NCBI GenBank assembly: GCA_903857495.1
Contig: CAIOFF010000003.1
Location: forward strand, 1-36,613
Direction of reading: 5' to 3'
Length of the DNA stretch: 36,613 bases
Origin: an uncultured Holophagaceae bacterium
GTDB lineage: Bacteria; Acidobacteriota; Holophagae; Holophagales; Holophagaceae
This document shows, piece by piece, positions 3,305 to 29,166 of this stretch. The notes beneath the pieces were generated by a model that saw only the letters and a list, made by a program, of their open reading frames with translations, ran no database searches and was not told the DNA's origin. Within the stretch, counting starts at the first letter, position 1, and every line of letters starts with the position of its first letter. Position numbers and translations under genes: made by a program.

Positions 3305-4858
3305 ATGCAAACAGAGACACCCGCAACACCCAGGCTCGAAATCAAGGGAATTCGGAAGGTCTACCCCTCCGTGATCGCCAACGACGGCATTGATCTGACC
3401 GTGATGCCCGGCGAGATCCACGCCGTGCTGGGGGAGAACGGCGCGGGGAAGTCCACGCTCATGAAGGTGATCTACGGGGTCATCCGGCCCGATGAGGGTG
3501 AGCTCCGCTGGGAAGGGCAGCCGGTCACCATCTCCAGCCCGGGCCATGCGCGGGAGCTGGGCATCGGCATGGTGTTCCAGCACTTCTCCTTGTTCGAGAC
3601 CCTGTCCGTGGTGCAGAACGTGGCGCTGGCCCTGCCGGGCGAGTTCGACCTGCCGACTCTCTCCAAGCGCATCGAGGAGGTCTCCACCCGCTATGGCTTG
3701 CCCGTGGACCCCCGCCGGCTGGTCCACGCCCTCTCCGTGGGCGAGCGGCAGCGTGTGGAGATCATCCGCTGCCTGCTGCAGAATCCCCGCCTGCTGATCC
3801 TCGATGAGCCCACCTCGGTGCTCACGCCCCAGGCGGTGCGGAAGCTCTTCGAGACCCTGCGCCAGTTGGCCTCCGAAGGTGTGAGCATCCTCTACATCAG
3901 CCACAAGCTCGACGAGATTCAGGAGCTCTGCCACAAGGCCACGGTGCTTCGGAACGGCAAGGTCACAGGGACCTGCACTCCCTCGCAGGAGACGCCCAAG
4001 ACCATGGCGCGCATGATGATCGGCGAGGACCTGCCGGTCTGCCACCACGGCGAGCCCGGTGACGGCGGCGAGGTGCGGCTGCGGATCGAGCGCCTTTCGC
4101 AGCCCACCGAGGACCCCTTCGGCACCCACCTGCACAACATCAACCTCGAGGTGCGGGCGGGCGAGATCGTCGGCATCGCCGGGGTCTCGGGCAATGGCCA
4201 GCAGGAGCTGCTGCGGGCGATCTCCGGCGAGGAACCCCTGGCTGATCACCAGGCCGTGCAGATGTGCGGCATGCCGGTGGGTCACTTCAATCCGGCCCGG
4301 CGCCGGGGTCTGGGGATGTGCTTCGTGCCTGAGGAGCGCCTGGGGCGGGGGGCCGTCCCGCGCCTGAGCCTCACAGAGAACATCCTCCTCACGGCCTACC
4401 GCAAGGGCATGCTGTTCAGCGGCCTCATCCGGTGGGGCGTGGCCAAGAAGTTCGCCGAGGACTGCATCGCCCGCTTCGACGTGAAGTGCGGGGGCGCCAA
4501 CTCGGAAGCCAAGTCCCTCTCCGGCGGCAACCTCCAGAAGTTCATCGTGGGCCGCGAGATCATGCAGGAGCCCCGGCTGCTGGTGCTGGCCCAGCCCACC
4601 TGGGGGGTGGACGTGGGCGCCTCCTCCTTCATCCGGCGGACCCTGCTCGACCTGCGCAACTCGGGCACGGCGATCCTGGTCATCTCCGAGGAGCTGGAAG
4701 AGCTGTTCGAGATCTGCGACCGCATCGTGGTGATCGCCAAGGGCACCCTCTCTCCCAGCAAGGTCACGTCGGAGACCGGGGTCGAGGAGATCGGCATCTG
4801 GATGAGTGGCATGTGGCCGGACGCCGAGAAACCGGGAGACGCGCCCCATGTGGCTTAA
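3305..4858 (+). CDS. Nucleoside/purine ABC importer, double ATPase subunit
   Basis: The protein (517 residues) has two fused ATPase domains of the ribose/nucleoside importer type (NupO/RbsA-like). Domain 1 has Walker [10 protein letters not shown] near residues 43-51, signature [10 protein letters not shown] near 143 and Walker [10 protein letters not shown] near 163. Domain 2 has the usual degenerate Walker A (GVSGNGQQ), signature LSGGNLQKF and a Walker B ending LAQPTWGVD, with Gln before Pro in place of the catalytic Glu. The first site therefore probably does most of the hydrolysis. The gene overlaps the first permease start by 11 bp. Guanine deaminase and xanthine dehydrogenase neighbours suggest purine bases or nucleosides as cargo; the exact substrate is not readable. 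Confidence 0.9.
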
Positions 4859-5915
4859 ATTCGAGCAGCGGCCTGAGCCCTCCAAGACCATGAGCTACCT
4901 GTCACCGCTGCTCGCGGTGGCGCTCATGTTCCTGAGCGGGCTGATCCTCTTCCTGGTCCTGGGCAAGAGTCCCCTCGAAGGCTTCAAGGTCTTCTTCCTG
5001 AATCCCATCAAGGACTCCTACGGGATTGCGGAGTTGTTCCTCAAGGCCACCCCCCTGATGCTCTGCGCCGTGGGCCTGTCGGTGGGTTTCAAGGCCAACG
5101 TCTGGAACATCGGCGCCGAAGGCCAGCTGCTCATCGGCGCCCTGGTGGGCGGCGGCCTGGCCCTGCACTTTGAAGGCAGCACCAGCCCCTTCCTGCTGCC
5201 GGGCATGATCGTGGCGGGAGCCCTGGGAGGCATGGCCTGGGCCGCGATCCCCGCCTTCCTGCGGACGCGGTTCAACGCCAACGAGATCCTCACGAGCCTG
5301 ATGCTGGTCTACATCGCCGAGCTGCTGGTGTCCTGGCTGGTGCACGGCCCCTGGAAGGACCCGGACGGCTTCAACTTCCCCCAGACCAAGCTGCTGAGCG
5401 CCAAGGCCACCCTGCCCATCCTGGTGGAGGGTACCCGGGTGAACGCCGCCCTGCTCCTGGGCATCGGTGCGCTGCTGGTTGGCTGGATCTTCATGAACAA
5501 GAGCTTCATGGGCTACCAGATGAAGGTGGCGGGCCAGGCGGAGCACGCGGGCCGCTACGCGGGGTTCTCGGCCAAGCGCTCGGTCTGGATCGGCATGCTG
5601 GCGGGCGGTGCCATGGCGGGCATTGCAGGCATCTCCGAGGTCTCCGGACCCATCGGCCAGATCACGGAGCACATCAGCCCGGGCTACGGGTTCGCGGCCA
5701 TGATCGTGGCCTTCGTGGGCCGCCTGAGTCCCATCGGCATCTTCTTCTCCAGCCTGCTCATGGCGCTCCTCTACATGGGCGGCGAGCAGGCCCAGCAGTA
5801 TCTCAACCTGCCCTCGTCGATCTCCAAGGTCTTCCAGGGCATGTTGCTGTTCTTCCTCCTTGGATCCGACGTTTTCATCAATTTCCGGCTGCGGCTGGTC
5901 CGGCGCAGGAAGTAG
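4848..5915 (+). CDS. Nucleoside/purine ABC importer, permease subunit 1
   Basis: This 355-residue multi-span inner-membrane protein belongs to the branched-chain/ribose/nucleoside permease family (NupP-like). A short cytoplasmic N-terminus precedes hydrophobic segments beginning [20 protein letters not shown]. The family region [19 protein letters not shown], the cytoplasmic coupling stretch with [18 protein letters not shown], and [14 protein letters not shown] are visible. ATG 4848 was chosen over the upstream ATG at 4806 because GGGAG at about 4834-4838 fits it and it gives a normal N-terminus. It overlaps the ATPase gene by 11 bp and is followed after 9 bp by the second permease, so the three form a translationally linked unit. 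Confidence 0.9.
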
Positions 5916-5924
5916 GGACCCCCC

Positions 5925-6857
5925 ATGGGACTGAACTTCATCAGCTCGATCCTCTTCGCCACCGTGGTGGCGGGCACGCCCCTCATCATCGTCGCCCTCG
6001 GTGAGCTGGTGACCGAGAAGGCGGGCGTCCTCAACCTCGGCGCCGAAGGCACCATGTCCGTGGGCGCCGTGGCGGCCTTCGCCGTGGCCCACCACACCGG
6101 GAACCCCTTCCTGGGCATCCTCGCGGGCATGGGGGCCGGCATCTTCATGTCCCTGCTCTTCGGTATCTCGGCCCTCACCCTCATGGCCAACCAGGTGGCC
6201 TCGGGACTGGCGCTGTCGATCTTCGGCGTGGGCCTCTCGGCCTTCATCGGCAAGCCCTACGAATCGGTGGCCCTGGCCAGTGTCGAACCCATCCGCATCC
6301 CTCTGCTCCACAAGATTCCAGTGTTCGGTCCGGCCCTCTTCGAGCAGCAGGGCCTGGTCTACTTCTCCTGGGTCCTGATTGTTCTCGTCGCCTGGTTCCT
6401 CTACCGGACCAAGGCGGGACTGGTGCTGCGGGCCGTGGGCGAGTCCCCGGTCTCGGCCCATTCCATCGGCTATGGGGTGGTCAAAATCAGGTACCAGGCA
6501 GTCCTCTTCGGGGGCGCCATGGCGGGCATCGGCGGGGCCTTCATGTCCGTGTTCTACACGCCCATGTGGGTGGAGGGCATGGTGGCGGGTCGCGGCTGGA
6601 TCGCGCTCTCCCTGGTGGTATTCGCCACCTGGCGCCCGGCCCGGGTCATGATAGGGGCGTATCTCTTCGGTGGGTGCATGATCGCTCAGATGTTCGTACA
6701 GGGTTCCGGCGTGCGGATCAGCATCCCCGCCCAGTTCCTGTCGGCCATGCCCTATGCGGCCACCGTCCTGGTCCTCGTCCTGATCTCCAGGAACCGCAGC
6801 ACGATCCGCCTCAACTCACCCGCTTCTCTCGGGCAGACCTTCCTGCCCGACGCCTGA
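5925..6857 (+). CDS. Nucleoside/purine ABC importer, permease subunit 2
   Basis: The second permease (310 residues, NupQ-like) probably forms the transmembrane heterodimer with subunit 1. Diagnostic stretches are GTPLIIVALGELVTEKAGVL followed by NLGAEGTMSVGAVAAF, and the cytoplasmic YRTKAGLVLRAVGESP near the middle. Several hydrophobic spans alternate with short loops throughout. The start at 5925 follows an AGGGA stretch directly after the upstream stop. Its C-terminus (about 30 residues after the last span) is polar. The cargo call depends entirely on context: the binding-protein gene follows and purine catabolic genes flank the set. Confidence 0.9.
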   Translation: MGLNFISSILFATVVAGTPLIIVALGELVTEKAGVLNLGAEGTMSVGAVAAFAVAHHTGNPFLGILAGMGAGIFMSLLFGISALTLMANQVASGLALSIFGVGLSAFIGKPYESVALASVEPIRIPLLHKIPVFGPALFEQQGLVYFSWVLIVLVAWFLYRTKAGLVLRAVGESPVSAHSIGYGVVKIRYQAVLFGGAMAGIGGAFMSVFYTPMWVEGMVAGRGWIALSLVVFATWRPARVMIGAYLFGGCMIAQMFVQGSGVRISIPAQFLSAMPYAATVLVLVLISRNRSTIRLNSPASLGQTFLPDA

Positions 6858-6917
6858 CCCCCCCCAACCCTCCGCCCCCATGGGCGGCCCCCCCCATCCA
6901 CCTTGGAGGAACACCGA

Positions 6918-8006
6918 ATGAAAACCCGCAACCTCGCCCTCGCAACCCTGGCAGGGGCCGTGCTGTTTAGCACCGCCCTCACCGCCGCCGAGCCCGTCAA
7001 GGTCGGCTTCATCTACGTGAGCCCCGTCGGGGACGCGGGCTGGACCTACCAGCACGACCTCGGCCGCAAGCAGATGGAGGCCGCCCTCAAGGGTCAGGTC
7101 ACCACCAAGTTCATCGAGAACGTGCCCGAGGGTGCCGACGCCGAGCGCATCATTCGCCAGATGGCCCAGGACGGCAACCAGATCATCTTCACCACCTCCT
7201 TTGGCTACATGAACCCCACCGAGAAGGTCTCCAAGACTTTCCCGAAGGTGACCTTCTTCCACGCCACGGGCTACAAGTCCGGCGCGAACATGGGCATCTA
7301 CAACGCCCGCTTCTACGAAGGCCGCTACCTGAACGGCGTCATCGCCGGCAAGATGAGCAAGACCAATGTGGCCGGCTATGTGGCCGCCTTCCCGATCCCC
7401 GAAGTGGTGATGGGCATCAACGCCTTCGCCCGCGGCATGAAGAGCGTGAACCCCAAGGCCGAAGTGCGCGTCATCTGGGTGAACAGCTGGTTCGATCCGG
7501 GCAAGGAGCGGGAAGCCGCCATGACCCTGATCGCCCAGGGCGCCGACATGATCACCCACCACACGGACTCCACCGCCGTGGTGCAGGCCGCCGAGGAGAA
7601 GCACAAGGAAAAGGGCACCTGGGCCTTCTCCTACCACTCCGACATGGCCAAGTACGGCCCCACCGCCCAGCTGTCTGGCACGACCCACGTCTGGGGCGAG
7701 TTCTACATCCGGACCATCAAGGAAGTGCTCGACAAGAAGTGGAAGGGCACCAATGTCTGGGGCGGCATGAAGGAAGGCATGATCCAGCTCGCGCCCATGA
7801 GCAAGTCTGTGCCCGCCGACCTCCAGAAGCAGATCGTGAAGCTTGAGGGCGAGATCAAGACCGGCAAGCTGCACCCCTTCGCGGGCCCCGTCGTGGACCA
7901 GGAGGGCAAGGAGCGCGTCGCCAAGGGCAAGAACATGTCCGACAGCGACATGAACGCCATGAACTACTACGTCCAGGGCGTGGCCTCGGCCTTCCCCAAG
8001 AACTGA
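6918..8006 (+). CDS. BMP-family periplasmic purine/nucleoside binding protein
   Basis: This 362-residue substrate-binding protein belongs to the basic-membrane-protein (BMP/Med) family. A Sec signal peptide is clear (MKTRNLALATLAGAVLFSTA, cleavage likely near ALTAAEP). There is no lipobox cysteine, so it should be a soluble periplasmic protein rather than a lipoprotein. The mature N-terminus VKVGFIYVSPVGDAGWTYQH and later ADMITHHTDSTAVVQAAEEK are typical of the family. ATG 6918 follows GGAGGA (6905-6910); the in-frame TTG at 6903 is rejected. BMP proteins usually bind purine nucleosides or related ligands, which agrees with the setting. A strong hairpin follows the stop and may stabilise this message. 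Confidence 0.9.
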   Translation: MKTRNLALATLAGAVLFSTALTAAEPVKVGFIYVSPVGDAGWTYQHDLGRKQMEAALKGQVTTKFIENVPEGADAERIIRQMAQDGNQIIFTTSFGYMNPTEKVSKTFPKVTFFHATGYKSGANMGIYNARFYEGRYLNGVIAGKMSKTNVAGYVAAFPIPEVVMGINAFARGMKSVNPKAEVRVIWVNSWFDPGKEREAAMTLIAQGADMITHHTDSTAVVQAAEEKHKEKGTWAFSYHSDMAKYGPTAQLSGTTHVWGEFYIRTIKEVLDKKWKGTNVWGGMKEGMIQLAPMSKSVPADLQKQIVKLEGEIKTGKLHPFAGPVVDQEGKERVAKGKNMSDSDMNAMNYYVQGVASAFPKN

Positions 8007-8089: not shown

Positions 8090-10654
8090 ATGGCCACGCT
8101 TCAGATCAACGGCCGCGAAGTTGTCACGTCGAAGGAAGGGAACCTCCTGGACTTTCTTCGGGACGAACTGAACCTCACCTCGGTGAAGAACGGTTGCTCG
8201 GAAGGAGCCTGCGGCGCCTGCATGGTGCTGGTGGACGGCAAGGCCTCCCGGGCCTGCCTGTTCAACACGGGCAAGCTGGAAGGCAAGCGTGTCCTCACGC
8301 TGGAAGGCCTCTCGCCCCGGGAGAAGGACGTCTACGCCTGGTCCTTCGCCCAGGCTGGCGCGGTCCAGTGCGGCTTCTGCATCCCGGGCATGGTGATCAG
8401 CGCCAAGGGGCTGCTGGATGCGAATCCGGATCCCCGCCCCGAGGAAGTGACCAAGGCCCTGGCGCAGAACATGTGCCGCTGCACGGGCTACGTGAAGATC
8501 GAAAAGGCGGTGCTGGAGTCCGCACGGCTCCTCCGCGAGAACCTTCCGGTGCCCGAGGAAGCCGCCACCCCGCTCAGCGTGGGCGCCCGCATCTGCCGGA
8601 CCGACGCCCGGGAGAAGGTCCTGGGCACGGGCCTCTACGTGGACGACATGAAGCGTCCGGGCATGCTGCACGGCGCTGTGCTGCGCGCCCCCAAGCCCCG
8701 GGTGAAGGTGCTGGGCATCGACACCACTGAAGCCCTGGCCATGCCGGGCGTGAAGCTCATTCTCACCGCCGCCGATGTTCCGGGCGAGCGGCACCAGGGC
8801 CACATCATCCATGACTGGCCCGCCATGATCGCTGTGGGCGAAGAGACCCGCTACGTGGGCGACGCCCTCGCCCTGGTGGCGGCTGCCACCCGCGCTGAGG
8901 CCAAGGCGGCCCTGGCCAAGATCAAGCTCGACTACGAGGTGCTGCCGCCCCAGGTCGACCCCCACCGCGCCCAGGACGAAGGCGCACCCCGGCTGCATCC
9001 CAAGGGCAACCTGCTGGCCCGGACCGTGCTCAAGCGCGGCGACGTGGAGGCGGCCTTTGCCGAGGCCACGCACATCATCCGCCAGACCTTCACTACCCCG
9101 GAGACCGAGCACGCCTTCATGGAGCCCGAGAGCGCCCTGGCGGTGCCCGAGGCCGACGGCACCCTGACGGTCTATACCGGGACCCAGAGCATCTACGACG
9201 ACCACAAGGGCATCATCGGCGTGCTGGGCGTGGGCCCCGAGCAGGTCAAAGTGGTCAGCGCCTACGTAGGCGGTGGCTTCGGCGGCAAGGAGGATCTCAT
9301 CGTCCAGCACCATGCCGCGCTGCTCGCCAACGCCGCGGGCGTGCCGGTGAAGGTCACTCTGGGCCGACAGGAGAGCCTGCGGGTGCACCCCAAGCGCCAC
9401 GCCTTCGAGATGGAATACGAAGTCGCCGCGGACGCGGCAGGCCGCATCACCGCCATGAAGGCCTACCTGCTGGAAGACACCGGCGCCTACGCCTCTCTGG
9501 GAGGCCCCGTGCTGCAGCGCGCCTGCACCCACGCCGCCGGTCCCTACAAGATCGCGAACGTCGACATCGTCGGCGAGGCGGTCTACACCAACAACCCGCC
9601 GGGCGGCGCCTACCGGGGCTTCGGTGTCACCCAGTCCTGCTTCGCCATGGAGTCCTGCCTGACGCTGCTGGCCAAGGAGGTGGGCCTCACTCCCTGGCAG
9701 ATCCGCTACCTCAACGCCGTGGAGCCCGGCGACGTGCTGCCCAACGGCCAGATCACCGATGCCGGCACGGCCCTCAAGGAGACCCTCCTGGCCGTGAAGG
9801 AGCTCTGCGAAGCTCGGCCCGACGCGGGCATCGCCTGCGCCATGAAGAACGCGGGCATCGGCGTGGGCCTCTCGGATGTGGGCCGCGTGCGGATCCGCAT
9901 CCAGGGCGGCAAGGCCGTCATCTACACCAGCGCCGCCTGCATCGGCCAGGGCCTGGCCTCGGTGCTCCTGCAGTTCGTGGCCGACGCCTCGGGGCTGGCC
10001 TGGGCCGAGCTCGACGTGGCCGTGCCGGACACCTCCACCTCGCCCAACGGCGGCACCACGACGGCCTCCCGGCAGACCGTGTTCAACGGCGAGGCCGCGC
10101 GCCTGGCCGCCACGGACCTGGGCGCGGACCTCAAGAGCCACAGCCTGGCGGAGCTCGAGGGCCGCGAGTACTACCGCGAATACTCGGGGGTGACGGATCC
10201 CATGGGCTCCGACAAGCCCAACCCCGTGAGCCACGTGTCCTATTCCTACGCCACCCAGGTGGTGCTGCTGAATGCCGAGGGGCGGCTGGAGCGGGTCGTG
10301 GCTGCCCACGACGTGGGCCGGGCCGTGAACCCCAACCAGGTGGAGGCCCAGATCGAAGGCGGTGTGGTGATGGCCCTGGGCTATGCCCTCACCGAGGACT
10401 TCCCGCTGAAGGACGGCGAGCCCCTCGCCAAGTACGGCACTCTCGGCCTCTTCAAGGCCACCCAGGTGCCGCCCATCGTGCCCCTCATCATCGAGAAGAA
10501 CCTGGATCCCCTGGCCTACGGCGCCAAGGGCATCGGCGAGATCGTCAGCATCCCCACAGCCCCGGCCGTGGCGGGCGCCTACTTCTACCGGGACGGGCAG
10601 TTCCGCACCAGCCTGCCCCTGCAGGGCACGCCCTACAGCCGGAAGAAGGCATGA
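8090..10654 (+). CDS. Fused selenium-type xanthine dehydrogenase (2Fe-2S plus molybdopterin), paralogue 1
   Basis: This 854-residue fusion has an N-terminal [2Fe-2S] pair domain (residues 1-155) and a molybdopterin domain (about 175-854), and it lacks an FAD domain. The first cluster has NGCSEGACGACMVL plus a later Cys; the second has VQCGFCIPG and CRCTGY. Mo-domain marks are YVGGGFGGKED (Glu401, matching bovine Glu802), AYRGFGVTQ with the substrate-binding Arg, and GAKGIGE with catalytic Glu817. The usual MGQG motif is CIGQG here. The architecture is that of the selenium-dependent xanthine dehydrogenase family (XdhD/Se_dep_XDH). It overlaps the downstream XdhC/CoxI maturation gene by ATGA. 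Substrate is inferred to be hypoxanthine, xanthine or another hydroxypurine. Confidence 0.88.
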   Translation: MATLQINGREVVTSKEGNLLDFLRDELNLTSVKNGCSEGACGACMVLVDGKASRACLFNTGKLEGKRVLTLEGLSPREKDVYAWSFAQAGAVQCGFCIPGMVISAKGLLDANPDPRPEEVTKALAQNMCRCTGYVKIEKAVLESARLLRENLPVPEEAATPLSVGARICRTDAREKVLGTGLYVDDMKRPGMLHGAVLRAPKPRVKVLGIDTTEALAMPGVKLILTAADVPGERHQGHIIHDWPAMIAVGEETRYVGDALALVAAATRAEAKAALAKIKLDYEVLPPQVDPHRAQDEGAPRLHPKGNLLARTVLKRGDVEAAFAEATHIIRQTFTTPETEHAFMEPESALAVPEADGTLTVYTGTQSIYDDHKGIIGVLGVGPEQVKVVSAYVGGGFGGKEDLIVQHHAALLANAAGVPVKVTLGRQESLRVHPKRHAFEMEYEVAADAAGRITAMKAYLLEDTGAYASLGGPVLQRACTHAAGPYKIANVDIVGEAVYTNNPPGGAYRGFGVTQSCFAMESCLTLLAKEVGLTPWQIRYLNAVEPGDVLPNGQITDAGTALKETLLAVKELCEARPDAGIACAMKNAGIGVGLSDVGRVRIRIQGGKAVIYTSAACIGQGLASVLLQFVADASGLAWAELDVAVPDTSTSPNGGTTTASRQTVFNGEAARLAATDLGADLKSHSLAELEGREYYREYSGVTDPMGSDKPNPVSHVSYSYATQVVLLNAEGRLERVVAAHDVGRAVNPNQVEAQIEGGVVMALGYALTEDFPLKDGEPLAKYGTLGLFKATQVPPIVPLIIEKNLDPLAYGAKGIGEIVSIPTAPAVAGAYFYRDGQFRTSLPLQGTPYSRKKA

Positions 10655-11691
10655 ACCTCGAGCTCCTCCGAGCCATCGTCGCCCACCCCCAGGACCTCGT
10701 GCTGTGCACGGTGCTGCGGGTCCGGGGCTCGGCGCCCCGCCACGCGGGCTCCAAGATGCTCGTGGGCCGCGAAGGCCGGCTGCTGGGCTCCGTGGGCGGC
10801 GGCCGCGGCGAAGCCCTGGCCCTGGCGGAGTCCGCCGCCCGGCTCGGCGGCGCGCAGCCCGCCGTCCTGGAGATCGACATGCAGGGCATGGACGCGGAAG
10901 GTCCCGCCATGGTCTGCGGCGGCACGAGCCGCCTCTTCGTGGAGCCCCTGGGCGACCGGACCTCCTACCGGTCGGCCCTCGGCCTGCTCGAGCAGGGCGT
11001 GGCCGCCTTGCTGGTGAAGCGGCTGGACACGGGGCAGACGGCCCTGCTGGATGCGGCGGGCGCCTGGGTGGAGAGCGCCCTGTCGGGCACCGACGCCCAG
11101 CACGCAAGCCAGGCCCTGGAGCACGGCCTGCCCGTGCTGGACGAGGAGGGGCAGCTCCTCTATGACCCGCTGCTGCCGAAGGAAAAGCTCCTGATCCTGG
11201 GCGCCGGCCACGTGGGCACGGCCCTGGCCGCCCTGGTGCCGAGCCTCGGCTTCGAGGTCACCATCGGCGATGACCGGCCCTCGTTCCTGGAGCCCCGGCG
11301 CTTCCCCGGCGGGGTCTACACCCTGGGCGGGTCCTACGCCGACATCGTCGCGGCCTTCCCCTTCGATGCGTCCACCTCGGTGGTGATCGTCACCCGGGGC
11401 CACCTCAGCGACCTGGAGTGCGTGCGGCTGATCCTCCCCAAGGCCTACCGCTACGCCGGCTTCATGGGCAGCCTGCGCAAGACCCGGCTGGTACTGGACC
11501 AGGTGGCCACCGAGGGCTTCGACCCCGCGAAGGTGGCGGCTCTGCGGGCGCCCATTGGCCTGGAGATCGGCGCCGAGACCCCCGAGGAGCTGGCCGTGGC
11601 CCTGGCTGCGGAGCTCATCGCCGCGCGCCGCAAGAGCCCCGCCTACGCAGCCACCCACGCGGCCCGCCAGGCCCGGCGCCAGACCCCATGA
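10651..11691 (+). CDS. XdhC/CoxI-family molybdenum hydroxylase maturation factor
   Basis: The protein (346 residues) has the N-terminal XdhC/CoxI module with LCTVLRVRGSAPRHAGSKML and GSVGGGRGE, followed by a Rossmann-like C-terminal domain starting LLILGAGHVGTALAAL near residue 175. Family members bind the molybdenum cofactor and insert the terminal sulfido ligand before it enters the apoenzyme. In this locus the ligand may be selenido. The gene starts within the stop of the fused dehydrogenase (ATGA) and overlaps yqeC the same way. The product is therefore probably made in step with its client. It should not be confused with the Fe-S subunit that E. coli nomenclature also calls XdhC. Confidence 0.9.
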   Translation: MNLELLRAIVAHPQDLVLCTVLRVRGSAPRHAGSKMLVGREGRLLGSVGGGRGEALALAESAARLGGAQPAVLEIDMQGMDAEGPAMVCGGTSRLFVEPLGDRTSYRSALGLLEQGVAALLVKRLDTGQTALLDAAGAWVESALSGTDAQHASQALEHGLPVLDEEGQLLYDPLLPKEKLLILGAGHVGTALAALVPSLGFEVTIGDDRPSFLEPRRFPGGVYTLGGSYADIVAAFPFDASTSVVIVTRGHLSDLECVRLILPKAYRYAGFMGSLRKTRLVLDQVATEGFDPAKVAALRAPIGLEIGAETPEELAVALAAELIAARRKSPAYAATHAARQARRQTP

Positions 11692-12455
11692 CCCTGGCTG
11701 CCGCCCTGCTGCCCCTGCTGCCCGGGGGCGCCGGTGTCATCGCCCTCGTCGGCGCGGGCGGCAAGACCAGCGCCCTCTTTCGCCTGGGGGCAGAGCTGGC
11801 GGCCGCAGGGCGCCGGGTGCTGCTCACCAGCACCACGCACCTGATGGACCCCCGGGGCGAAGCGGCCCGGCCCCCGCTGACCCTGGTGCTCCAGCCGGAG
11901 CTGGAGGCGCCGGCAGGTGACTGCGCGCTGCCTCCGGCTGTGCCGGGACTCACGGTGCTGATGGCCCGCCCGGCCGCGGAACCCGGCAAGCTGAAGGGTA
12001 TTCATCCTGCCTGGATCTCCGCCCTGAAGGCTTCCTGGGACTTTGTCCTGGTGGAAGCGGACGGCTCGCGCCGCCTGCCGCTCAAGGCGCCCGCTGACCA
12101 CGAGCCGGTCCTGCCTCCCGGCGCCGACCTGGTGGTGGGTGTCGTGGGTCTGGCGGCCCTGGGTCGGCCCCTGGACGGACGGACCGTCCATCGGCCCGAG
12201 CGCTTTCGGGACCTCACCGGCTGCCCCCTGGGCGAGCCCCTTGCGTGGGACCATGTGGTGGCCCTGGCCCGCCATCCCCAGGGCCTCTTCAAGGACGCTC
12301 CGGGACCCCGAGTCATGCTGCTCAACCAGGCCGACCAGGCCACCCTCCTGCCCACCGCGAGCCAGCTCGCGGAGCTGCCCGCGGACCGGGTGCTGCTGAC
12401 CATGCTGGCGCCGGACGTCCGGGTCCTCGCCTGCGTCCCCGGGAGGCGCCCATGA
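11688..12455 (+). CDS. yqeC: Selenium-dependent hydroxylase accessory protein YqeC
   Basis: This 255-residue P-loop protein has an N-terminal nucleotide-binding motif VGAGGKTS (about residues 20-27), then LLTSTTHL and a central DFVLVEADGSRRLPLKAP block. Those three blocks are hallmarks of the YqeC family, which co-occurs with SelD and YqeB in genomes carrying selenium-dependent molybdenum hydroxylases. The biochemical role is unknown; a GTPase/ATPase-like step in metal or selenium delivery is a guess. Start and stop overlap the neighbouring genes by 4 bp each. The real start is ATG 11688, although the frame stays open far upstream. Confidence 0.87.
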   Translation: MTLAAALLPLLPGGAGVIALVGAGGKTSALFRLGAELAAAGRRVLLTSTTHLMDPRGEAARPPLTLVLQPELEAPAGDCALPPAVPGLTVLMARPAAEPGKLKGIHPAWISALKASWDFVLVEADGSRRLPLKAPADHEPVLPPGADLVVGVVGLAALGRPLDGRTVHRPERFRDLTGCPLGEPLAWDHVVALARHPQGLFKDAPGPRVMLLNQADQATLLPTASQLAELPADRVLLTMLAPDVRVLACVPGRRP

Positions 12456-13258
12456 GCCTGCTGCACGGGGAGCTCGTCGTGGTGCGGGGCGCGGGGGACC
12501 TGGCCACGGGCTGCATCCTGCGGCTGGTCCGCGCGGGCTTCCGCGTGGTGGCCCTGGAGGTCGCGGAGCCCAGCGCCATCCGCCGCACGGTCAGCCTCTC
12601 TGAGGCGATGTACGAAGGCCGCGCCCGTGTGGAGGGCCTCGAGGCTTGGCGCTGCGAGGCGCTGCCCGCGACCTGGGCGCCCGGCGACCCCGTGCCGATC
12701 CTGCTGGACCCCGAGGGCCGGTGCCTCGAACACCTGCGGCCCGTGGCCCTGGTGGACGCCATCCTCGCCAAGCGCAACCTGGGTACCCGGCTGGACATGG
12801 CCCCGGTGGTGGTGGCCCTGGGCCCGGGCTTCGAGGCTGGGCGCGACGCCCACGCGGTGGTGGAGACCAACCGGGGTCACGACCTGGGCCGGGTGCTGCT
12901 GGCTGGTTGTGCCGAGCCCAACACCGGCGTGCCCGGCCTCATCGCGGGGCGCGGCGGAGAGCGAGTGATCCACGCGCCCGTGGCGGGCTCGGTGGAGCCC
13001 TGCTGCGCCATCGGCGACTTCGTGAAGGCCGGCGACCCAGTGCTGTCCATCCAGGGCGTGATGGTCTGCTCGGCCATCGACGGCGTGGTGCGGGGCCTCA
13101 TCCGCCCCGGCTTTGTCGCGCGGGCCGGCCTCAAGGTGGCGGATGTGGATCCCCGGGGTGAGCGGGAGCACTGCTTCACGGTGTCCGACAAGGCCCGGGC
13201 CATCGCCGGCGGGGCCCTGGAGGCCATCCTGATGCTGGGGGCCGGGGAGGCCCGATGA
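12452..13258 (+). CDS. yqeB: Selenium-dependent molybdenum hydroxylase system protein YqeB (EF2563 family)
   Basis: The protein has 268 residues and starts with a Rossmann-like VVVRGAGDLATGCILRL. It then has VALEVAEPSAIRRTVSLSEA, TRLDMAPVVVALGPGFEAG, and a C-terminal biotinyl-lipoyl-like stretch (HAPVAGSVEPCCAIGDFVKA). This is the EF2563/YqeB family, a marker of the labile-selenium molybdenum hydroxylase trait in organisms such as Enterococcus faecalis. Its exact activity is unknown. From memory, E. coli YqeB is a longer protein that also carries an XdhC-like part, whereas here the two functions are separate genes. It overlaps yqeC and the aminotransferase by ATGA junctions. Confidence 0.87.
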   Translation: MSLLHGELVVVRGAGDLATGCILRLVRAGFRVVALEVAEPSAIRRTVSLSEAMYEGRARVEGLEAWRCEALPATWAPGDPVPILLDPEGRCLEHLRPVALVDAILAKRNLGTRLDMAPVVVALGPGFEAGRDAHAVVETNRGHDLGRVLLAGCAEPNTGVPGLIAGRGGERVIHAPVAGSVEPCCAIGDFVKAGDPVLSIQGVMVCSAIDGVVRGLIRPGFVARAGLKVADVDPRGEREHCFTVSDKARAIAGGALEAILMLGAGEAR

Positions 13259-14385
13259 TCTACCTGGACAACGCGGCCACCAGCCATCCCAAGGCCCCCG
13301 GAGTCGCGGCGGCGGTAGCGGGCTGCCTCGACGAAGGGGCCTGCAGCCCTGGGCGCGGCAGCCATCCCCTGGCCCTGGCGGCGAGCCGCCTGCTCTTCGA
13401 GGCCCGCGAGGCCACGGTGGGGTTCCTGGGGGCGCCCCACTCCGAGCGCCTGATCTTCACGCCGAACGCCACTGCGGCCCTGAACCTGGCCCTCCTGGGC
13501 AGCGTTCCCCCCGGGGGGCTGGTGGCGCTCAGCAGCCTGGAGCACAACGCGGTCATGCGGCCCCTCCGCCACCTGGAGGCCACCCAGGGCGTGCGCCTCC
13601 GGGTGATCCCCTTCGACGGCTGTGGCCGCCCCGATCCTGGGAGCCTCCAGGAGGCCCTGGACCAGCGCCCGGACCTCTTCGTCCTGACCACGGCCAGCAA
13701 CGTGACTGGAGCCCTCACCCCGGTGGCTGAGATCGCGGAGCAGTGCGCCCGGCGCGGCATCCCGCTCTGCCTCGACGCCAGCCAGTCCCTGGGGCACCAT
13801 CCCCTGCCGGCCCTGGGCCAGTTCACCTGCTTCTCGGGTCACAAGGGCCTGCTGGGACCCACTGGCACCGGGGGCCTGCTGCTGGGACCCGGGACCCTGC
13901 CGCATCCGTTGTTGTTCGGCGGCACCGGCAGCGCCTCGGAGCTGGAGGTCCAGCCGGTCATCCTGCCGGACCGCTTCGAGCCGGGCACCCCCAACCTGCC
14001 GGGCCTGGCGGGTCTCAAGGCTGCGTTGCAGTTCCTCGCGGACACGGGGCTGCCGGCCATCCAGGCGCGGGAGGCGGCCCTCAGCGCCGAGCTCCTCCGG
14101 GGCCTGCTCGCGCTTCCCGGCGTGGTGGTCCATGGCCCCGGTCCCGGTGAGCCCCGGGTGCCCGTCGTCTCGCTCACGCTGCCCGGCCGGGACCCGGGCG
14201 AGGTTGCCCTGGAGCTGGACCGGCGCGGCATCTGCACCCGGGTGGGCCTCCACTGCGCCCCCGCCGCGCACCGCAGCCTTGGCACCTTCGCCGGGGGCGG
14301 CACCCTGCGCCTCTCGCCGGGATTCTTCACCACGGACCAGGAGATCCGCGACACCCTGGAAGCCCTGGAGGCGATCCTCACGTGA
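13255..14385 (+). CDS. Class V aminotransferase, cysteine desulfurase/selenocysteine lyase-like
   Basis: This PLP enzyme (376 residues) resembles the EF2568-type cysteine desulfurases that accompany SelD in selenium-hydroxylase loci. The N-terminus YLDNAATSHPKAPGV and the SLEHNAVMRPL block are typical. The PLP lysine is Lys197 in CFSGHKGLLGP, and the catalytic cysteine is Cys334 in RVGLHCAPAAHRSLGT. It would withdraw sulfur or selenium from cysteine or selenocysteine as a persulfide or perselenide and hand it to SelD or to the maturation factors. It is coupled to yqeB (ATGA) and selD (GTGA). Distinguishing a selenium from a sulfur donor is not possible from sequence alone. Confidence 0.88.
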   Translation: MIYLDNAATSHPKAPGVAAAVAGCLDEGACSPGRGSHPLALAASRLLFEAREATVGFLGAPHSERLIFTPNATAALNLALLGSVPPGGLVALSSLEHNAVMRPLRHLEATQGVRLRVIPFDGCGRPDPGSLQEALDQRPDLFVLTTASNVTGALTPVAEIAEQCARRGIPLCLDASQSLGHHPLPALGQFTCFSGHKGLLGPTGTGGLLLGPGTLPHPLLFGGTGSASELEVQPVILPDRFEPGTPNLPGLAGLKAALQFLADTGLPAIQAREAALSAELLRGLLALPGVVVHGPGPGEPRVPVVSLTLPGRDPGEVALELDRRGICTRVGLHCAPAAHRSLGTFAGGGTLRLSPGFFTTDQEIRDTLEALEAILT

Positions 14386-15401
14386 AGCTCACGGCCTACA
14401 CACGGTTCTCGGGTTGCGGCGCCAAGCTGGGCCCCGGCGTGCTCGAGCAGGCCCTCTGCGGGCTGGCGCAGCCCGCTTGTCCGGAGCTGCTGGCGGACTT
14501 CTCGGGCAGCGAGGACGCGGGCCTGTTCCGCCTGGGGCCCCACCAGGCCCTGGTGCAGACCGTGGACTTCTTCCCGCCCATCGTGGATGACCCCTATCTC
14601 TTTGGCCGCATCGCCGCGGCCAACGCCCTGTCGGACCTCTACGCCATGGGCGCCCGGCCCATCACGGCCCTGGCCCTGGTCTGCCACCCCCTCAAGGCCC
14701 TGGGCATGGAACCCCTCAAGGCCATGTTGGAGGGCGGCCTCGCGGCCCTGACCGAGGCTGGCTGCGCCCTGCTGGGCGGACACAGCATCGAGGACCCGGA
14801 GCCCAAGCTGGGCTACGCCGTCACGGGCCTGGTGGATCCGGACCGGGCCTGGCGGAACAACACCCTGGAGCCGGGCGGGAAGCTGCTCCTGACCAAGCCC
14901 ATCGGCACCGGCCTCGTGAACATGGCCCTTCGCGCCGAGTGCGCCTCGCCCGCGGCCCAGGCCGCCGCCGAGACCGCCATGGCCACCCTCAACAAGGCCG
15001 CCGCCCAGGTGCTGGCGGGCTTCCGGGTACAGGCCTGCACGGACGTCACGGGCTTCGGCCTGGCGGGCCACGCCGCCGAGATGGCCCTGGGCGACCGCTG
15101 TGGCCTGAGCCTCTGCATGGCCCAGGTCCCCCTGCTGCCGGAGGTCCAGGACTATGCCGCCATGGGCCTGATCCCCGAGGGCACCTACCGGAACCGCGAG
15201 GGGCGCCTCAAGTTCCTGCGCGGCGACCTCAGCCCCGCGAACCTGGACCTGCTCTTCGACCCCCAGACCTCGGGCGGCCTGCTGGCGGCCCTCCCCGCCG
15301 CCGAGGCCGACGCGGCCCTGGCCGCCCTCCACGCGGCGGGCGTGCCCGCCTGGATCATCGGCGAGACCGGGGGCGCTCCGGGCTTCGTGCAGGTCGTCTA
15401 G
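14382..15401 (+). CDS. selD: Selenide, water dikinase (selenophosphate synthase)
   Basis: The enzyme makes selenophosphate from selenide and ATP. At 339 residues it is near the E. coli length of 347. Catalytic Cys12 and Lys15 lie in FSGCGAKLGPG, so this is the Cys form rather than a selenoprotein. Other blocks are VDFFPPIVDDPYLFGRIAAA, DLYAMGARPITA, LGGHSIEDPEPKLGYAVTG, TDVTGFGLAGHAAEM and DPQTSGGLL. GTG 14382 overlaps the previous stop (GTGA). No selA, selB or tRNA-Sec is in the window. Its partners are YqeB, YqeC, YedF and DUF3343, which fits the orphan-SelD/labile-selenium trait. Other Se genes elsewhere in the genome cannot be excluded. Confidence 0.95.
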   Translation: MKLTAYTRFSGCGAKLGPGVLEQALCGLAQPACPELLADFSGSEDAGLFRLGPHQALVQTVDFFPPIVDDPYLFGRIAAANALSDLYAMGARPITALALVCHPLKALGMEPLKAMLEGGLAALTEAGCALLGGHSIEDPEPKLGYAVTGLVDPDRAWRNNTLEPGGKLLLTKPIGTGLVNMALRAECASPAAQAAAETAMATLNKAAAQVLAGFRVQACTDVTGFGLAGHAAEMALGDRCGLSLCMAQVPLLPEVQDYAAMGLIPEGTYRNREGRLKFLRGDLSPANLDLLFDPQTSGGLLAALPAAEADAALAALHAAGVPAWIIGETGGAPGFVQVV

Positions 15402-15403
15402 CC

Positions 15404-15649
15404 ATGCTTCTGCTCGCCACCTATGCCTCCAGCCACGCGGCCCTGCGGGCGGAAAAGGCCCTCAAGGCCGCGGGCGTCCCGGTCGAGCTGATCCCGGTGC
15501 CCCGCCAGGTCCAGAGCCTCTGCGGCTTCGGCCTGCTGGCCGAGGTCCCGGACGGCGTTTTATTGCAAGAGAGTGGCGCCGAGAATCTATGGCAAGTTAG
15601 AGAGCCCGAAGCAGGTCAATGGCGGAGGACCTATGAGCCCTACCCGTAG
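15404..15649 (+). CDS. DUF3343 small putative Se/S carrier protein
   Basis: This 81-residue protein begins two bases after selD and overlaps yedF by 17 bp. It has the DUF3343 pattern: LATYASSHAALRAEKALKAA, then VELIPVPRQVQSLCGFGLLA with a single conserved-looking cysteine in the LCGFG turn. DUF3343 proteins recur beside SelD and YedF, and a selenium or sulfur shuttle role has been proposed on context. The start is ATG 15404; the frame is open upstream but shadows selD. It could pass selenide or persulfide between the desulfurase and SelD. That is inference. Confidence 0.78.
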   Translation: MLLLATYASSHAALRAEKALKAAGVPVELIPVPRQVQSLCGFGLLAEVPDGVLLQESGAENLWQVREPEAGQWRRTYEPYP

Positions 15650-16259
15650 AACCCTGGACGCCCGCGGACTCCCCTGTCCCCAGCCCGTGATCCTGGCGCG
15701 GAAGGCCCTGGCCGAGGGGGGCTTCGACACCCTGGAGATCACCGTCGATGACGCGGCCTCCCGGGAGAACCTGCTGAAGTTCGGCGCCTACGCGAAGTGC
15801 CAGGTCGAGGCCGTGGACGAGGGCGGGGGGGTGACCCGCGTCCGCTTGAGCCCCCAGGGCTTGGCACCGGCTCCGGCGAAGGCCGAGGCCTGCCCGCTGC
15901 CCGAGGGGGGGCCGGGCGGCGGCCCGGTGGAGGTGGTCCTCCTGTCCGCTGACGGCATCGGCCAGGGCGATCCCGGGCTGGCCCGCCTGCTCATGCGTGG
16001 CTTCGTCTACACGCTGACGGAAGCCGAGCGGGTGCCCCGGCGGCTCCTGCTCATGAACAGCGGGGTGAAGCTGGCGGTGGAGGGCTCCGAGTCCCTGGCC
16101 AACCTCCAGAAGCTCGAGGCCCGGGGCGTGGAGGTATTGGCCTGCGGCACCTGCCTGGAGTTCTTCGGCCTGACCAGCTGTCTCGCCGTGGGCGGAATCA
16201 CGAACATGTATGAGATCGCCGGGCATCTCATGGAAGGACCGACCTTGAGCCTGGGCTAG
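15633..16259 (+). CDS. yedF: Selenium metabolism protein YedF (TusA plus DsrE-like domains)
   Basis: The 208-residue protein has an N-terminal TusA/SirA domain with the sulfur/selenium-carrying Cys in LDARGLPCPQPVILARKAL (about residues 8-26) and a C-terminal DsrE/DsrF-like domain. The C-terminal domain contains LLLMNSGVKLAVEGSE and VEVLACGTCLEFFGL, which has two Cys. This two-domain form is the selenium-metabolism YedF type that co-occurs with SelD. It probably carries the chalcogen to the cofactor-modifying step. ATG 15633 has a good GGAGG (15624-15628) and is chosen over an upstream in-frame ATG at 15573. It is the last gene of the coupled block and is followed by a 119-bp gap. Confidence 0.88.
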   Translation: MSPTRRTLDARGLPCPQPVILARKALAEGGFDTLEITVDDAASRENLLKFGAYAKCQVEAVDEGGGVTRVRLSPQGLAPAPAKAEACPLPEGGPGGGPVEVVLLSADGIGQGDPGLARLLMRGFVYTLTEAERVPRRLLLMNSGVKLAVEGSESLANLQKLEARGVEVLACGTCLEFFGLTSCLAVGGITNMYEIAGHLMEGPTLSLG

Positions 16260-16378: not shown

Positions 16379-18694
16379 ATGGACCACAAGATCGTGGGAA
16401 AAAACACCCAGAGGCTCGATGCCGTCGCCAAGGTCACCGGCCGGGCCATGTACACGGACGACTTCTTTGAGCGGGACATGCTGGTGGGCAAGGTCCTCCG
16501 CAGTCCCCATGCCCACGCCCGGGTCACGCGCATCGATGCCTCCAAGGCCAAGGCCCTGCCCGGCGTGGTGGCGGTCCTGACCCCCGCGGACCTGCCGAAG
16601 ATCAAGTTCGCCACGGCGGGGCACCCCTGGTCCCTGGATCCCGGCCACCGGGACGTCGAGGACCGGCTGATCCTCACCGACAAGGCCCGCTTCGTGGGCG
16701 ATGCCATTGCGGCGGTGGTCGCCGAGGACCTGCTCACGGCGGAGAAGGCCCTGCACCTCATCGAGGTCGAGTACGAGGTGCTGCCCCACGTGCTCACCGC
16801 CGAGGACGCCATGCAGGAGGGCGCTCCCCTCCTCCACGAGAACCGGCCCGGCAACATCGTCAGCTCCTTCGGGGTCCAGTTCGGAGACGTGGAAGCCGAG
16901 TTCCAGAACGCGGAAGTCATCTTCGAGGGCGACTACGAGACCAGCATCGTCCAGCACTGCCACATCGAGTCCATGAGCGCCTACGCCTTCGTGGACTCCG
17001 ACGGGCGGGTGGTGGTGAACTCCTCCACCCAGATCCCCCACATCGTCCGGCGCATCGTGGCCCAGGCCCTGGGCCTGTCCTGGGGCCGGGTGAAGGTCAT
17101 CAAGCCGTACATCGGCGGCGGCTTCGGCAACAAGCAGGACGTGGTGGTGGAGCCCCTGACGGCGGCCATGAGCCTGGCGGCGGGCGGGCGGCCCGTGCGC
17201 TACTGCATGACCCGCGAGGAGGTCTTCATCGACACTCGCACCCGGCACGGCATGAAGCTCCACCTCAAGACCGCCCTCAGCCGGGACGGGAAGCTTCAGG
17301 GCATCCACATGCAGGTGCTGAGCAACACCGGCGCCTACGCCTCCCACGGCCACTCCATCGCCATGTCCGCAGGCGGGAAGTTCCGCCCCTTGTATGACTT
17401 CCGGGCCATCAAGTACGAGCCCAAGACGGTCTACACCAACCTGCCCGTGGCGGGCGCCATGCGCGGCTACGGCACGCCCCAGATCTTCTTCGCGCTGGAG
17501 AGCCACCTGGACGACATCGCCCGGAAGCTGGAGCTGGATCCCATCGAGCTGCGCCGGAAGAACCTCATCAAGCTGGGTCACCAGGATCCCCTCACCAAGA
17601 ACGTGGTCCGCTCCTTCGGCATCCCCGAGTGCATCGAGAAGGGCAAGGAGCTCATCCACTGGGAGGAGAAGAAGCAGGCGCACCAGGGCCAGACCGGCCA
17701 CCTGCGCCGCGGGCTCGGCATGGCCTGCTTCGCTTACGCCTCGGGCACCCATCCCGTGGCCCTGGAGCTGGCGGGCGCCCGCATCGTCATGAACCAGGAC
17801 GGCTCGGTGACCCTGCAGGTGGGCGCCACGGAGATCGGCCAGGGCAGCGACACGGTCTTCGCCCAGATCACCGCCGAGACCCTGGGACTGCCTGTGGACA
17901 TGGTCCATGTGGTCACCACCCAGGACACGGACATCACCCCCTTCGACTCCGGCGCCTACGCCTCGCGGCAGACCTTTGTCACGGGCATCGCCGTGCGCAA
18001 GGCGGCTCTGGAGGTCCGGCAGAAGGTGCTGGAGGTGGCCGCCCGCCGCACGGGCCTGGCCCCCGCCGAGATGGACCTCCGGGACCGGATGATCGTCGAG
18101 ACCAGCCTGGGCCGCACCGTCTGCAGCCTGGGGGACGTGGCCATGGACTCCTTCTACGACCGGCTCCTCGCCGCCCCCATCACCAGCGACACCTCGGCCA
18201 ACGTGCGCATCAACGCCATGTCCTATGGTGCCACCTTCGTGGAAGTGGAGGTCGACATCCAGACGGGTCGCGTCGAGGTCACCGAGCTCTGGAACATCCA
18301 CGACTCGGGCACCATCATCAACCCCAAGCTGGCCGAGGGCCAGGTCCACGGCGGCGTCAGCATGTCCCTGGGGGCCGCGCTGCTGGAGCAGATGCTCTTC
18401 GATCCCGTCACGGGCAAGCCCCTGAACCCCAACCTGCTCGACTACAAGCTGCCCACGGTCCTGGACACGCCCAAGATCAACGCGGCCTTCGTGGAGACCT
18501 TCGACGCGGCGGGCACCTTCGGCTCCAAGTCCCTGGGCGAGTGCCCGACGATCTCCCCGGCCCCGGCGGTGCGCAACGCGGTCATGGACGCCACCGGCGT
18601 GGCCTTCCACAAGATCCCCCTCTACCCGCAGGTGGTGTTCGAGAAGTTCCGGGAAGCCGGGCTCCTGGCCGAAAGGAGCGTGCAGCATGTTTGA
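16379..18694 (+). CDS. xdhA: Xanthine dehydrogenase, molybdenum subunit XdhA
   Basis: This 771-residue large subunit matches the recalled E. coli XdhA along its length: QRLDAVAKVTGRAMYTDDFF, IVQHCHIESMSAYAF, STQIPHIVRRIVAQALGL, LSNTGAYASHGHSIAMS, TNLPVAGAMRGYGTPQ and LLDYKLPTVLDTPKI. The MoCo site shows EIGQGSDTVFAQ, and catalytic Glu721 sits in SKSLGECP. The substrate-pocket position equivalent to bovine Glu802 is Gln253 (GGGFGNKQD), as in E. coli XdhA, whereas the three other molybdenum subunits here have Glu. GAGG (16369-16372) supports the start. It oxidises a hydroxypurine in complex with XdhB and the Fe-S subunit; the 8-bp overlap with xdhB suggests coupled translation. Confidence 0.93.
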   Translation: MDHKIVGKNTQRLDAVAKVTGRAMYTDDFFERDMLVGKVLRSPHAHARVTRIDASKAKALPGVVAVLTPADLPKIKFATAGHPWSLDPGHRDVEDRLILTDKARFVGDAIAAVVAEDLLTAEKALHLIEVEYEVLPHVLTAEDAMQEGAPLLHENRPGNIVSSFGVQFGDVEAEFQNAEVIFEGDYETSIVQHCHIESMSAYAFVDSDGRVVVNSSTQIPHIVRRIVAQALGLSWGRVKVIKPYIGGGFGNKQDVVVEPLTAAMSLAAGGRPVRYCMTREEVFIDTRTRHGMKLHLKTALSRDGKLQGIHMQVLSNTGAYASHGHSIAMSAGGKFRPLYDFRAIKYEPKTVYTNLPVAGAMRGYGTPQIFFALESHLDDIARKLELDPIELRRKNLIKLGHQDPLTKNVVRSFGIPECIEKGKELIHWEEKKQAHQGQTGHLRRGLGMACFAYASGTHPVALELAGARIVMNQDGSVTLQVGATEIGQGSDTVFAQITAETLGLPVDMVHVVTTQDTDITPFDSGAYASRQTFVTGIAVRKAALEVRQKVLEVAARRTGLAPAEMDLRDRMIVETSLGRTVCSLGDVAMDSFYDRLLAAPITSDTSANVRINAMSYGATFVEVEVDIQTGRVEVTELWNIHDSGTIINPKLAEGQVHGGVSMSLGAALLEQMLFDPVTGKPLNPNLLDYKLPTVLDTPKINAAFVETFDAAGTFGSKSLGECPTISPAPAVRNAVMDATGVAFHKIPLYPQVVFEKFREAGLLAERSVQHV

Positions 18695-19568
18695 CATCTG
18701 CGAACTCTGCGAACCCGAGACCCTCGCGGAGGCCAAGGCTCTCTTTCGCGCCAACCCCGAGCTGAAGGTCATCGCCGGCGGCACGGACGTGCTCATCCGG
18801 ATGCAGCACGGGAACCTGGCGGGCGCGGGCCTGCTTAGCCTGCGGAACATCCCGCACCTGGACGAGATCCAGCTGCTTGCGGACGGCACCCTCTCCATCG
18901 GCGCCATGGCGCCCTTCACCCGGATCTTCGAGCACGAGCTCATCCGCAAGCTTGTGCCCGTGCTGGGCGAGGCCTCGGTGTCCATGGGCGGCCCCCAGGT
19001 GCGCAACGTGGCCACCATCGGCGGCAACCTCTGCAACGGCGCCGTGTCCGCAGACAGCGCCTCGACGCTGTTCGCCCTGGACGCGCTGCTGAAGCTGGAG
19101 ACCGCCGAGGGCGAGCGCATCATCCCCATGCGGGACTTCTACGCGGGCCCCGGCAAGGTGAACCTGCTGCCGGGTGAACTGCTGGTCGCCATCCTCATCC
19201 CCCGCGAGGGCTACGAGGGCATGGGCGGCCACTACATCAAGTTCGCCCCCCGGAAGGCCATGGACATCGCCACCCTGGGCGTCGCGGCGGTGTGCAAGAT
19301 CCGGGAGAACCGCTTCGTGGAGCTGCGCATCGGTCTGGGCGTGGCCGCGCCCGTGCCCGTCCGCTGCTTCGAGGCCGAGGACTACGCCAAGGGCCGCGAG
19401 GTGACCTGGGAGTGCGTCCAGGAGATCGCCCGGCTGGCCCTGAAGCCCGCCAAGGCCCGCTCCTCCTGGCGCGCCTCCAAGGACTACCGGGAACACCTGA
19501 TTGAAGTGCTGGCCCAGCGCGCGGTGGCCGAAGCCGTGAAGCGGGGGGGAGGTTGCTGTGCTGACTAA
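18687..19568 (+). CDS. xdhB: Xanthine dehydrogenase, FAD subunit XdhB
   Basis: This 293-residue medium subunit binds FAD and passes electrons from the Fe-S centres to the acceptor. The two FAD loops are visible as VIAGGTDVLIRMQHG (near residue 29) and VRNVATIGGNLCNGAVSADSA (near 108). Further YgeT/XdhB-type blocks are GPGKVNLLPGELLVAI, RKAMDIATLGVAA and ARSSWRASKDYREHLIEVL, the last nearly identical to recalled E. coli XdhB. It overlaps xdhA by 8 bp and the Fe-S gene by 11 bp. NAD-binding capacity cannot be judged from the motifs. The C-terminus ends in a short Cys-containing tail that overlaps the next gene's start. Confidence 0.93.
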   Translation: MFDICELCEPETLAEAKALFRANPELKVIAGGTDVLIRMQHGNLAGAGLLSLRNIPHLDEIQLLADGTLSIGAMAPFTRIFEHELIRKLVPVLGEASVSMGGPQVRNVATIGGNLCNGAVSADSASTLFALDALLKLETAEGERIIPMRDFYAGPGKVNLLPGELLVAILIPREGYEGMGGHYIKFAPRKAMDIATLGVAAVCKIRENRFVELRIGLGVAAPVPVRCFEAEDYAKGREVTWECVQEIARLALKPAKARSSWRASKDYREHLIEVLAQRAVAEAVKRGGGCCAD

Positions 19569-24623: not shown

Positions 24624-24768
24624 ACGGAACTCACCGCCCAGGCATCCCATCCCAGAGGGGAAACCACCCCCCTTGGCTTTGTCTTTGATTTTCATACAGT
24701 TGGCTTCATGGGACGAATAAGGGTTTTGGGAGATAGATAAAAAAATTTTTTTCGAATGAAAAAAATTA

Positions 24769-24796
24769 TTGACCTGCCTGTCGAGATTCCTAGAAT
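24769..24796 (+). promoter_or_regulatory. Sigma-70 promoter for the xdh2-ygeY-ygfK operon
   Basis: TTGACC (24769-24774), a 16-nt spacer and TAGAAT (24791-24796) form a good promoter in the 278-bp gap after arcC. Upstream lie an A7T7 tract (24739-24752) and TGAAAAAAATT (24757-24767), likely UP-element or bent DNA. The leader to the next ATG is about 100 nt. Confidence 0.65.
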
Positions 24797-24901
24797 TGAA
24801 CTGCAACTTGACGCACAACTCCCCAGAGCCTGCTGCGCGGAAATGGCGATCCCTGGGGAACCGAAGCGAACACCCAACAGGTCAAGAGAGGGGAGGGAGC
24901 C

Positions 24902-29113: not shown

Positions 29114-29166
29114 CTGGCCGCACCAAGGCAGTTCCGTCTCCTCCGTTTGCACGGGAGCAAGGCACC

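Follow-up and report, generated by a model that had tools for sequence, protein, structure and literature searches.

The 36,613-nucleotide stretch of DNA analyzed here (the window; contig CAIOFF010000003.1 of assembly GCA_903857495.1) comes from an uncultured Holophagaceae bacterium of the Acidobacteriota and carries, at 10651–16259, a block of seven genes for XdhC, YqeC, YqeB, a desulfurase, SelD, DUF3343 and YedF. This block is a selenium-cofactor-only ("orphan SelD") operon within an anaerobic purine-degradation cluster, and it is very probably a self-contained maturation operon that loads selenium on the molybdenum enzymes of purine breakdown. Gut bacteria and archaea were already known to have systems of this kind, of which the Holophagaceae case is a new and unusually compact member. 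The source genome (3.70 Mb, 98.5% complete) is a draft of 70 contigs. An earlier note on this DNA had described seven genes following one dehydrogenase, and all seven open reading frames were confirmed, with matching families, downstream of a TIGR03311 dehydrogenase in the order xdh-XdhC-YqeC-YqeB-desulfurase-SelD-DUF3343-YedF:

8090–10654, + strand: selenium-dependent xanthine dehydrogenase (XDH), single-chain FeS and Mo subunit (TIGR03311, 1294.5 bits, cut-off 830)
10651–11691, + strand: XdhC/CoxI-family molybdenum-cofactor maturation factor (PF02625 and PF13478 above cut-off)
11688–12455, + strand: YqeC, predicted SIMIBI-type P-loop NTPase (TIGR03172, 187 bits, cut-off 73)
12452–13258, + strand: YqeB, Rossmann-like domain with inserted biotinyl/lipoyl-like domain, as predicted (TIGR03309, 341.5 bits, cut-off 220)
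13255–14385, + strand: class-V (NifS-like) cysteine desulfurase or selenocysteine lyase (PF00266; SGHK and HCAP motifs)
14382–15401, + strand: SelD, selenophosphate synthetase, Cys form (TIGR00476, 355.6 bits, cut-off 125)
15404–15649, + strand: DUF3343 (Se_S_carrier; PF11823, 49.1 bits, cut-off 25; Cys in PR..S.CG)
15633–16259, + strand: YedF, TusA-like and DsrE-like domains (TIGR03527, 177.3 bits, cut-off 110; PF01206)

A single SelD scored above cut-off in the whole genome, and its GCGAK motif, with the catalytic Cys and Lys retained, bears out its earlier description as the Cys form. There was no match to selA in the whole genome. For selB the best genome match (188.5 bits) was under the cut-off of 242 and all 14 control genomes match likewise, while the best score for tRNA-Sec was 41.3 bits, below 47, the eight top loci being Leu, Ser, Arg, Tyr and Phe tRNAs. 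SelU was ruled out as a user of SelD, since selU/ybbB gave only partial matches of 18.8 and 17.9 bits in the genome (cut-off 220). These selB, tRNA-Sec and selU searches covered the window's own genome; the window itself holds no tRNA genes. The earlier note had seen no selA, selB or tRNA-Sec and had recognized an orphan-SelD signature, and both statements hold at the scale of the whole genome. Moreover, YqeB and YqeC were both found above cut-off with molybdenum hydroxylases of the selenium-dependent family nearby, the combination that marks the selenium-dependent molybdenum hydroxylase (SDMH) trait. On its gene content, the organism is a predicted orphan-SelD user of selenium as a cofactor only.

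It could be argued that SelD serves a selenocysteine (Sec) system whose genes lie in the unassembled 1.5% of the genome or are too diverged for detection, as the assembly is a 70-contig draft and DUF3343, YedF and lyases also go with Sec systems (PMC5322559). However, selA is missing from all six Holophagaceae carriers of YqeB, two of which are single-contig assemblies, and was found in 22 of the 24 other YqeB carriers of the phylum, indicating that detection works; nor do the best-scoring tRNA loci hold a tRNA-Sec. We therefore rejected a Sec system with missing genes as very unlikely on the selA, selB and tRNA-Sec searches.

The block consists of two joined sub-modules, one for supply (desulfurase, SelD, DUF3343 and YedF) and one for loading (XdhC, YqeC and YqeB). 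In the mechanism that we propose, the pyridoxal-phosphate desulfurase or selenocysteine lyase would free selenium, the cysteines of DUF3343 and YedF would carry it as perselenide, and SelD would use ATP to produce selenophosphate. XdhC would hold the molybdenum cofactor, and YqeB and YqeC would place labile selenium on it, YqeC acting as a helper driven by nucleotide. The selenium-loaded cofactor would then pass to the neighboring XDH-type enzymes and so serve anaerobic purine breakdown. We infer every transfer step, and likewise that the enzymes contain selenium. The earlier note had suggested a relay of this kind, which agrees with the order of the genes, with their co-occurrence and with a DUF3343::SelD fusion, although the direct transfer of selenium to XdhC-bound cofactor is still a step that we infer. 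New here are the split into sub-modules, the fusion, and the folds predicted for YqeB and YqeC.

In most of the other Acidobacteriota YqeB loci examined, YqeB lies beside XdhC or a molybdenum hydroxylase with SelD elsewhere, and in two (L074 and L075) the desulfurase, SelD, DUF3343 and YedF form a separate cluster. Among 80 YqeB loci from many phyla, in which the counts are blurred by truncated contigs, DUF3343 accompanies YedF, the desulfurase and SelD (naive Fisher p of 1.6e-11, 3.8e-10 and 3e-8, respectively) and not YqeC or XdhC (p of 1 and 0.6), a suggestive pattern of gene co-occurrence.

A single uninterrupted open reading frame with PF11823 N-terminal to a Cys-type SelD is present in nine Acidobacteriota genomes belonging to two families other than Holophagaceae (L074:13259-14548; also L162-L170 and L174-L180). 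The eight other fusion proteins are 66–74% identical to the L074 protein over nearly their whole length, with the Cys of both DUF3343 and SelD retained; the Pfam domains were verified in two of the nine. A desulfurase is upstream of the fusion in seven of nine cases, immediately adjoining it in six, and the fusion is usually just 3' of YedF and the desulfurase. Given its place as the N-terminal part of SelD in these genomes, DUF3343 probably hands selenium to SelD. YqeB matches are lacking in six of the nine, so the pairing of DUF3343 with SelD does not depend on molybdenum hydroxylases. In a published survey, the fusion partners of SelD were NADH-dehydrogenase-like and NifS-like, N-terminal and nearly always on Cys-SelD (PMC4561486); the fusions found here are alike in having an N-terminal domain on a Cys-type SelD and differ in that the partner is DUF3343. 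We found no mention of a DUF3343::SelD fusion in the main texts of the literature searched, supplements aside. DUF3343 has been proposed as a selenium chaperone on gene-neighborhood grounds (PMC5322559), a proposal that the fusion supports independently.

The individual supply and loading proteins were also compared with narrower family models. The desulfurase reached 351 bits against TIGR01977 (cut-off 377) and 283.7 bits against NF040779, the model for the SclA selenocysteine lyase (cut-off 525), so membership of SclA was not accepted, and on its sequence we name it a class-V desulfurase/lyase and no finer. The conserved-Cys motif of DUF3343 reads PRQVQSLCG in the window, and YedF, which falls within TIGR03527, has CPQP in its TusA-like domain and CGTC in its DsrE-like domain. 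XdhC scored 238 bits against NF045664, under the cut-off of 350. XdhC together with a desulfurase is a known sulfuration route, as in Rhodobacter capsulatus, and this counts for an explanation in which the block makes an ordinary sulfurated cofactor, with SelD, DUF3343 and YedF as detoxification or passenger genes. The desulfurase score under the SclA cut-off is consistent with that explanation, as is the occurrence of DUF3343 in SelD-lacking organisms (PMC5322559). We nevertheless consider it unlikely. SelD, YqeB, YqeC and YedF are selenium-linked families, the catalytic Cys and Lys of SelD are intact, and the dehydrogenase passes the model for selenium-dependent XDH. In addition, YqeB, SelD, DUF3343 and YedF are gained or lost jointly within the genus of the window, where four of the 24 sampled genomes have all four and the other 20 have none.

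Confident structure models were obtained for two of the loading proteins. The YqeC model (predicted local distance difference test, pLDDT, 95.8) has as its closest folds the signal recognition particle (SRP) GTPases and MinD (Z 11–12.4, the highest over 175 residues), and a profile search also matches FtsY (E 1.5e-6). The Walker A residues G22, G24, G25 and K26 (GxGGKT) are invariant in 34 sequences, and N213 of an NKxD-like motif, which reads NQAD in the window version, is kept in 32 of them. We thus predict that YqeC is a P-loop NTPase of the SIMIBI type; our literature searches for YqeC as a GTPase found nothing useful. In the YqeB model (pLDDT 94.1), a biotinyl-like domain is inserted in a Rossmann-like one, and residues 170–233 match biotin carboxyl carrier protein (BCCP) domains with a root-mean-square deviation of 1.0–1.3 Å over 62–65 residues (Z about 10.5). 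Carriage of biotin or lipoate by YqeB has been proposed from its similarity to AccB (PMC11448449). The fold agrees, but the hairpin is about four residues shorter at the lipoyl-Lys position and no Lys is conserved in it across 42 sequences, so that we rejected such carriage and predict YqeB to be a Rossmann protein whose biotinyl-like domain has no modifiable lysine. The YqeB proteins of a divergent Acidobacteriota group (L070 and L072) have a long insertion in the same hairpin.

Genetic data bearing on these roles come from Clostridioides difficile, whose purine pathway likewise has YqeB and SelD, and where growth on xanthine and urate requires selD and yqeB (PMC11448449). Its genes are scattered and it also makes selenocysteine, whereas those of the window are in one operon. 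The C. difficile genetics thus support roles for SelD and YqeB, and not clearly for YqeC. The earlier note had left the steps of YqeB, YqeC and DUF3343 unassigned; the fusion, the predicted folds and the C. difficile YqeB genetics allow them to be narrowed. As the insertion of selenium into molybdenum hydroxylases is considered the least understood selenium pathway (PMC11448449), it is useful that the supply and loading genes occur together here with no competing selenium use detected, providing a clean set for expression and dissection. The fusion and the predicted folds make three "unknown" proteins testable, with DUF3343 as a candidate donor to SelD, YqeC as a candidate nucleotide-driven helper, and YqeB as a candidate scaffold that cannot take biotin or lipoate by the normal route.

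Several observations weigh against the selenium-loading reading. The desulfurase is absent from the block of the Holophagaceae relative UBA692 (L083; 10001-11866), where YqeB is followed directly by SelD; this block arose by natural deletion, having lost the gene, so the operon desulfurase is not indispensable. Deletion of yqeC in C. difficile had no clear phenotype (PMC11448449). MocA/YgfJ, a member of the Enterococcus faecalis block, is absent from the window block, and no match in the genome passes the cut-off, the best having 101 bits (cut-off 186). This best match, a MocA/YgfJ-like nucleotidyltransferase, lies far from the operon (C59:123729-124253, L181), and matches of similar score are present in genus members without the operon. 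When the co-occurrence of DUF3343 was corrected for the tree on its supported branches, only five independent pairs remained, which leaves the test underpowered, and none of the associations was significant, with the direction the same. Lastly, a draft assembly could hide a Sec gene, though the single-contig relatives also have no selA.

The junctions of the block were described correctly to the base in the earlier note. Overlaps of 4 bp join the dehydrogenase to XdhC, XdhC to YqeC, YqeC to YqeB, YqeB to the desulfurase and the desulfurase to SelD, and these are followed by a 2-bp gap between SelD and DUF3343 and a 17-bp overlap between DUF3343 and YedF, the latter starting at ATG 15633 after a ribosome-binding-site-like stretch. 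The 17-bp overlap is retained in all six Holophagaceae loci compared, in which the proteins are down to 52–78% identical to those of the window, and its retention despite such divergence argues that it is not chance. Both 4-bp overlaps flanking the desulfurase (YqeB/desulfurase and desulfurase/SelD) are likewise retained in six of six, with the remaining block junctions ranging from -10 to +9. Since window junctions outside the block overlap too (-4, -8 and -11), the overlaps are partly local style. Translational coupling of the block genes is plausible from this arrangement; the earlier proposal that co-translation is "stoichiometric" is unsupported, overlapping junctions being found outside the block as well.

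YqeB was above cut-off in 27 of 396 Acidobacteriota genomes, and selA is present in 22 of the 30 with YqeB-like matches. The eight without selA are the six from Holophagaceae, a 77%-complete genome and one other (G341). The gene order of the operon is the same in six Holophagaceae loci and in L082 and L084, and partly so in the Spirochaetes loci L086 and L088. The closest named relatives are in Holophagaceae, then Propionivibrio and Spirochaetes, and a quick YqeB tree placed the Holophagaceae with Spirochaetes and Propionivibrio (node value 99), apart from other Acidobacteriota. This grouping and the scattered occurrence of the genes among members of the genus suggest that the operon was acquired by horizontal transfer, which has been reported before for the selenium cofactor trait (PMC5029168); a literature search for Holophaga and selenium found nothing useful. 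A further reading, that DUF3343 is a dedicated carrier handing perselenide to SelD and the operon a minimal two-part system conferring the trait by horizontal transfer, seems to us evenly balanced between true and false.

The same SelD, YqeB and YqeC markers, with molybdenum hydroxylases, define the third selenium trait of Haft and Self (2008) and Zhang et al. (2008). Unlike the window's organism, most other sampled Acidobacteriota carriers of YqeB have selA, with SelD elsewhere in the loci examined. The orphan-SelD locus of E. faecalis (EF2563-EF2570, with a copy on plasmid pCF3A-343-2, NZ_CP142821.1) also has XdhC, selenium-dependent XDH, selenocysteine lyase, SelD, YedF, DUF3343, YqeC and YqeB in one run with purine-catabolism genes alongside, and that organism has the selenium-cofactor trait only (PMC2276186, PMC2432076). 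There, selenium was found as a labile non-Sec species (PMC2432076). The E. faecalis order is XdhC-xdh-mocA-sclA-selD-yedF-DUF3343-yqeC-yqeB; the window differs in order, in having no MocA and in its tighter overlaps, and the proteins are 28–53% identical. In its xdhABC-ygfK (yge/ygf) region, Escherichia coli shares with the window XdhABC, carbamate kinase, diaminopropionate ammonia-lyase, a YgeY-like hydrolase, YgfK, a hydantoinase, YqeB and YqeC (PMC2276186). Its selD is elsewhere and it has both Sec and selenouridine (SeU), whereas the purine cluster of the window itself contains SelD, the desulfurase, DUF3343 and YedF.

The dehydrogenase at 8090–10654, the first gene of the coupled run, is the presumed client of the block; its nearest solved chains are aldehyde oxidoreductase (1sij) and the nicotinate dehydrogenase large subunit (3hrd_A). 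The block sits amid four molybdenum-hydroxylase gene sets and further purine-catabolism genes, which the earlier note had not stressed, and the window as a whole forms a cluster for anaerobic purine degradation that, besides a YgeY-like hydrolase gene, includes:

176–1120: carbamate kinase
1164–2366: diaminopropionate ammonia-lyase
2427–2909, - strand: deaminase-like gene (PF00383), possibly a guanine deaminase of the purine cluster
3305–8006: BMP-type ABC transporter
16379–20079: XdhA/B/C
20104–23679: pucD-like enzyme with FeS and FAD subunits
23676–24623: second carbamate-kinase-like gene (sequence only; ATGA overlap with the FAD subunit gene)
24902–27508, + strand: second TIGR03311-type selenium-dependent XDH (855 bits, barely over the cut-off of 830), a possible further client
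29035–32469: YgfK (TIGR03315)
35098–36465: hydantoinase-like gene

The TIGR03315 model matched by YgfK is named for a putative selenate reductase subunit, which would agree with the YgfK-type neighbors handling selenate or selenite and SelD removing selenide. We regard this as extremely unlikely, however, given the purine-catabolism context (carbamate kinases, diaminopropionate ammonia-lyase, hydantoinase and BMP-type transporter), and Haft and Self also considered such a role and rated it less likely (PMC2276186). Between the transcription units, an AT-rich gap with a poly-A/T stretch (24625–24900) is likely a promoter or terminator region.

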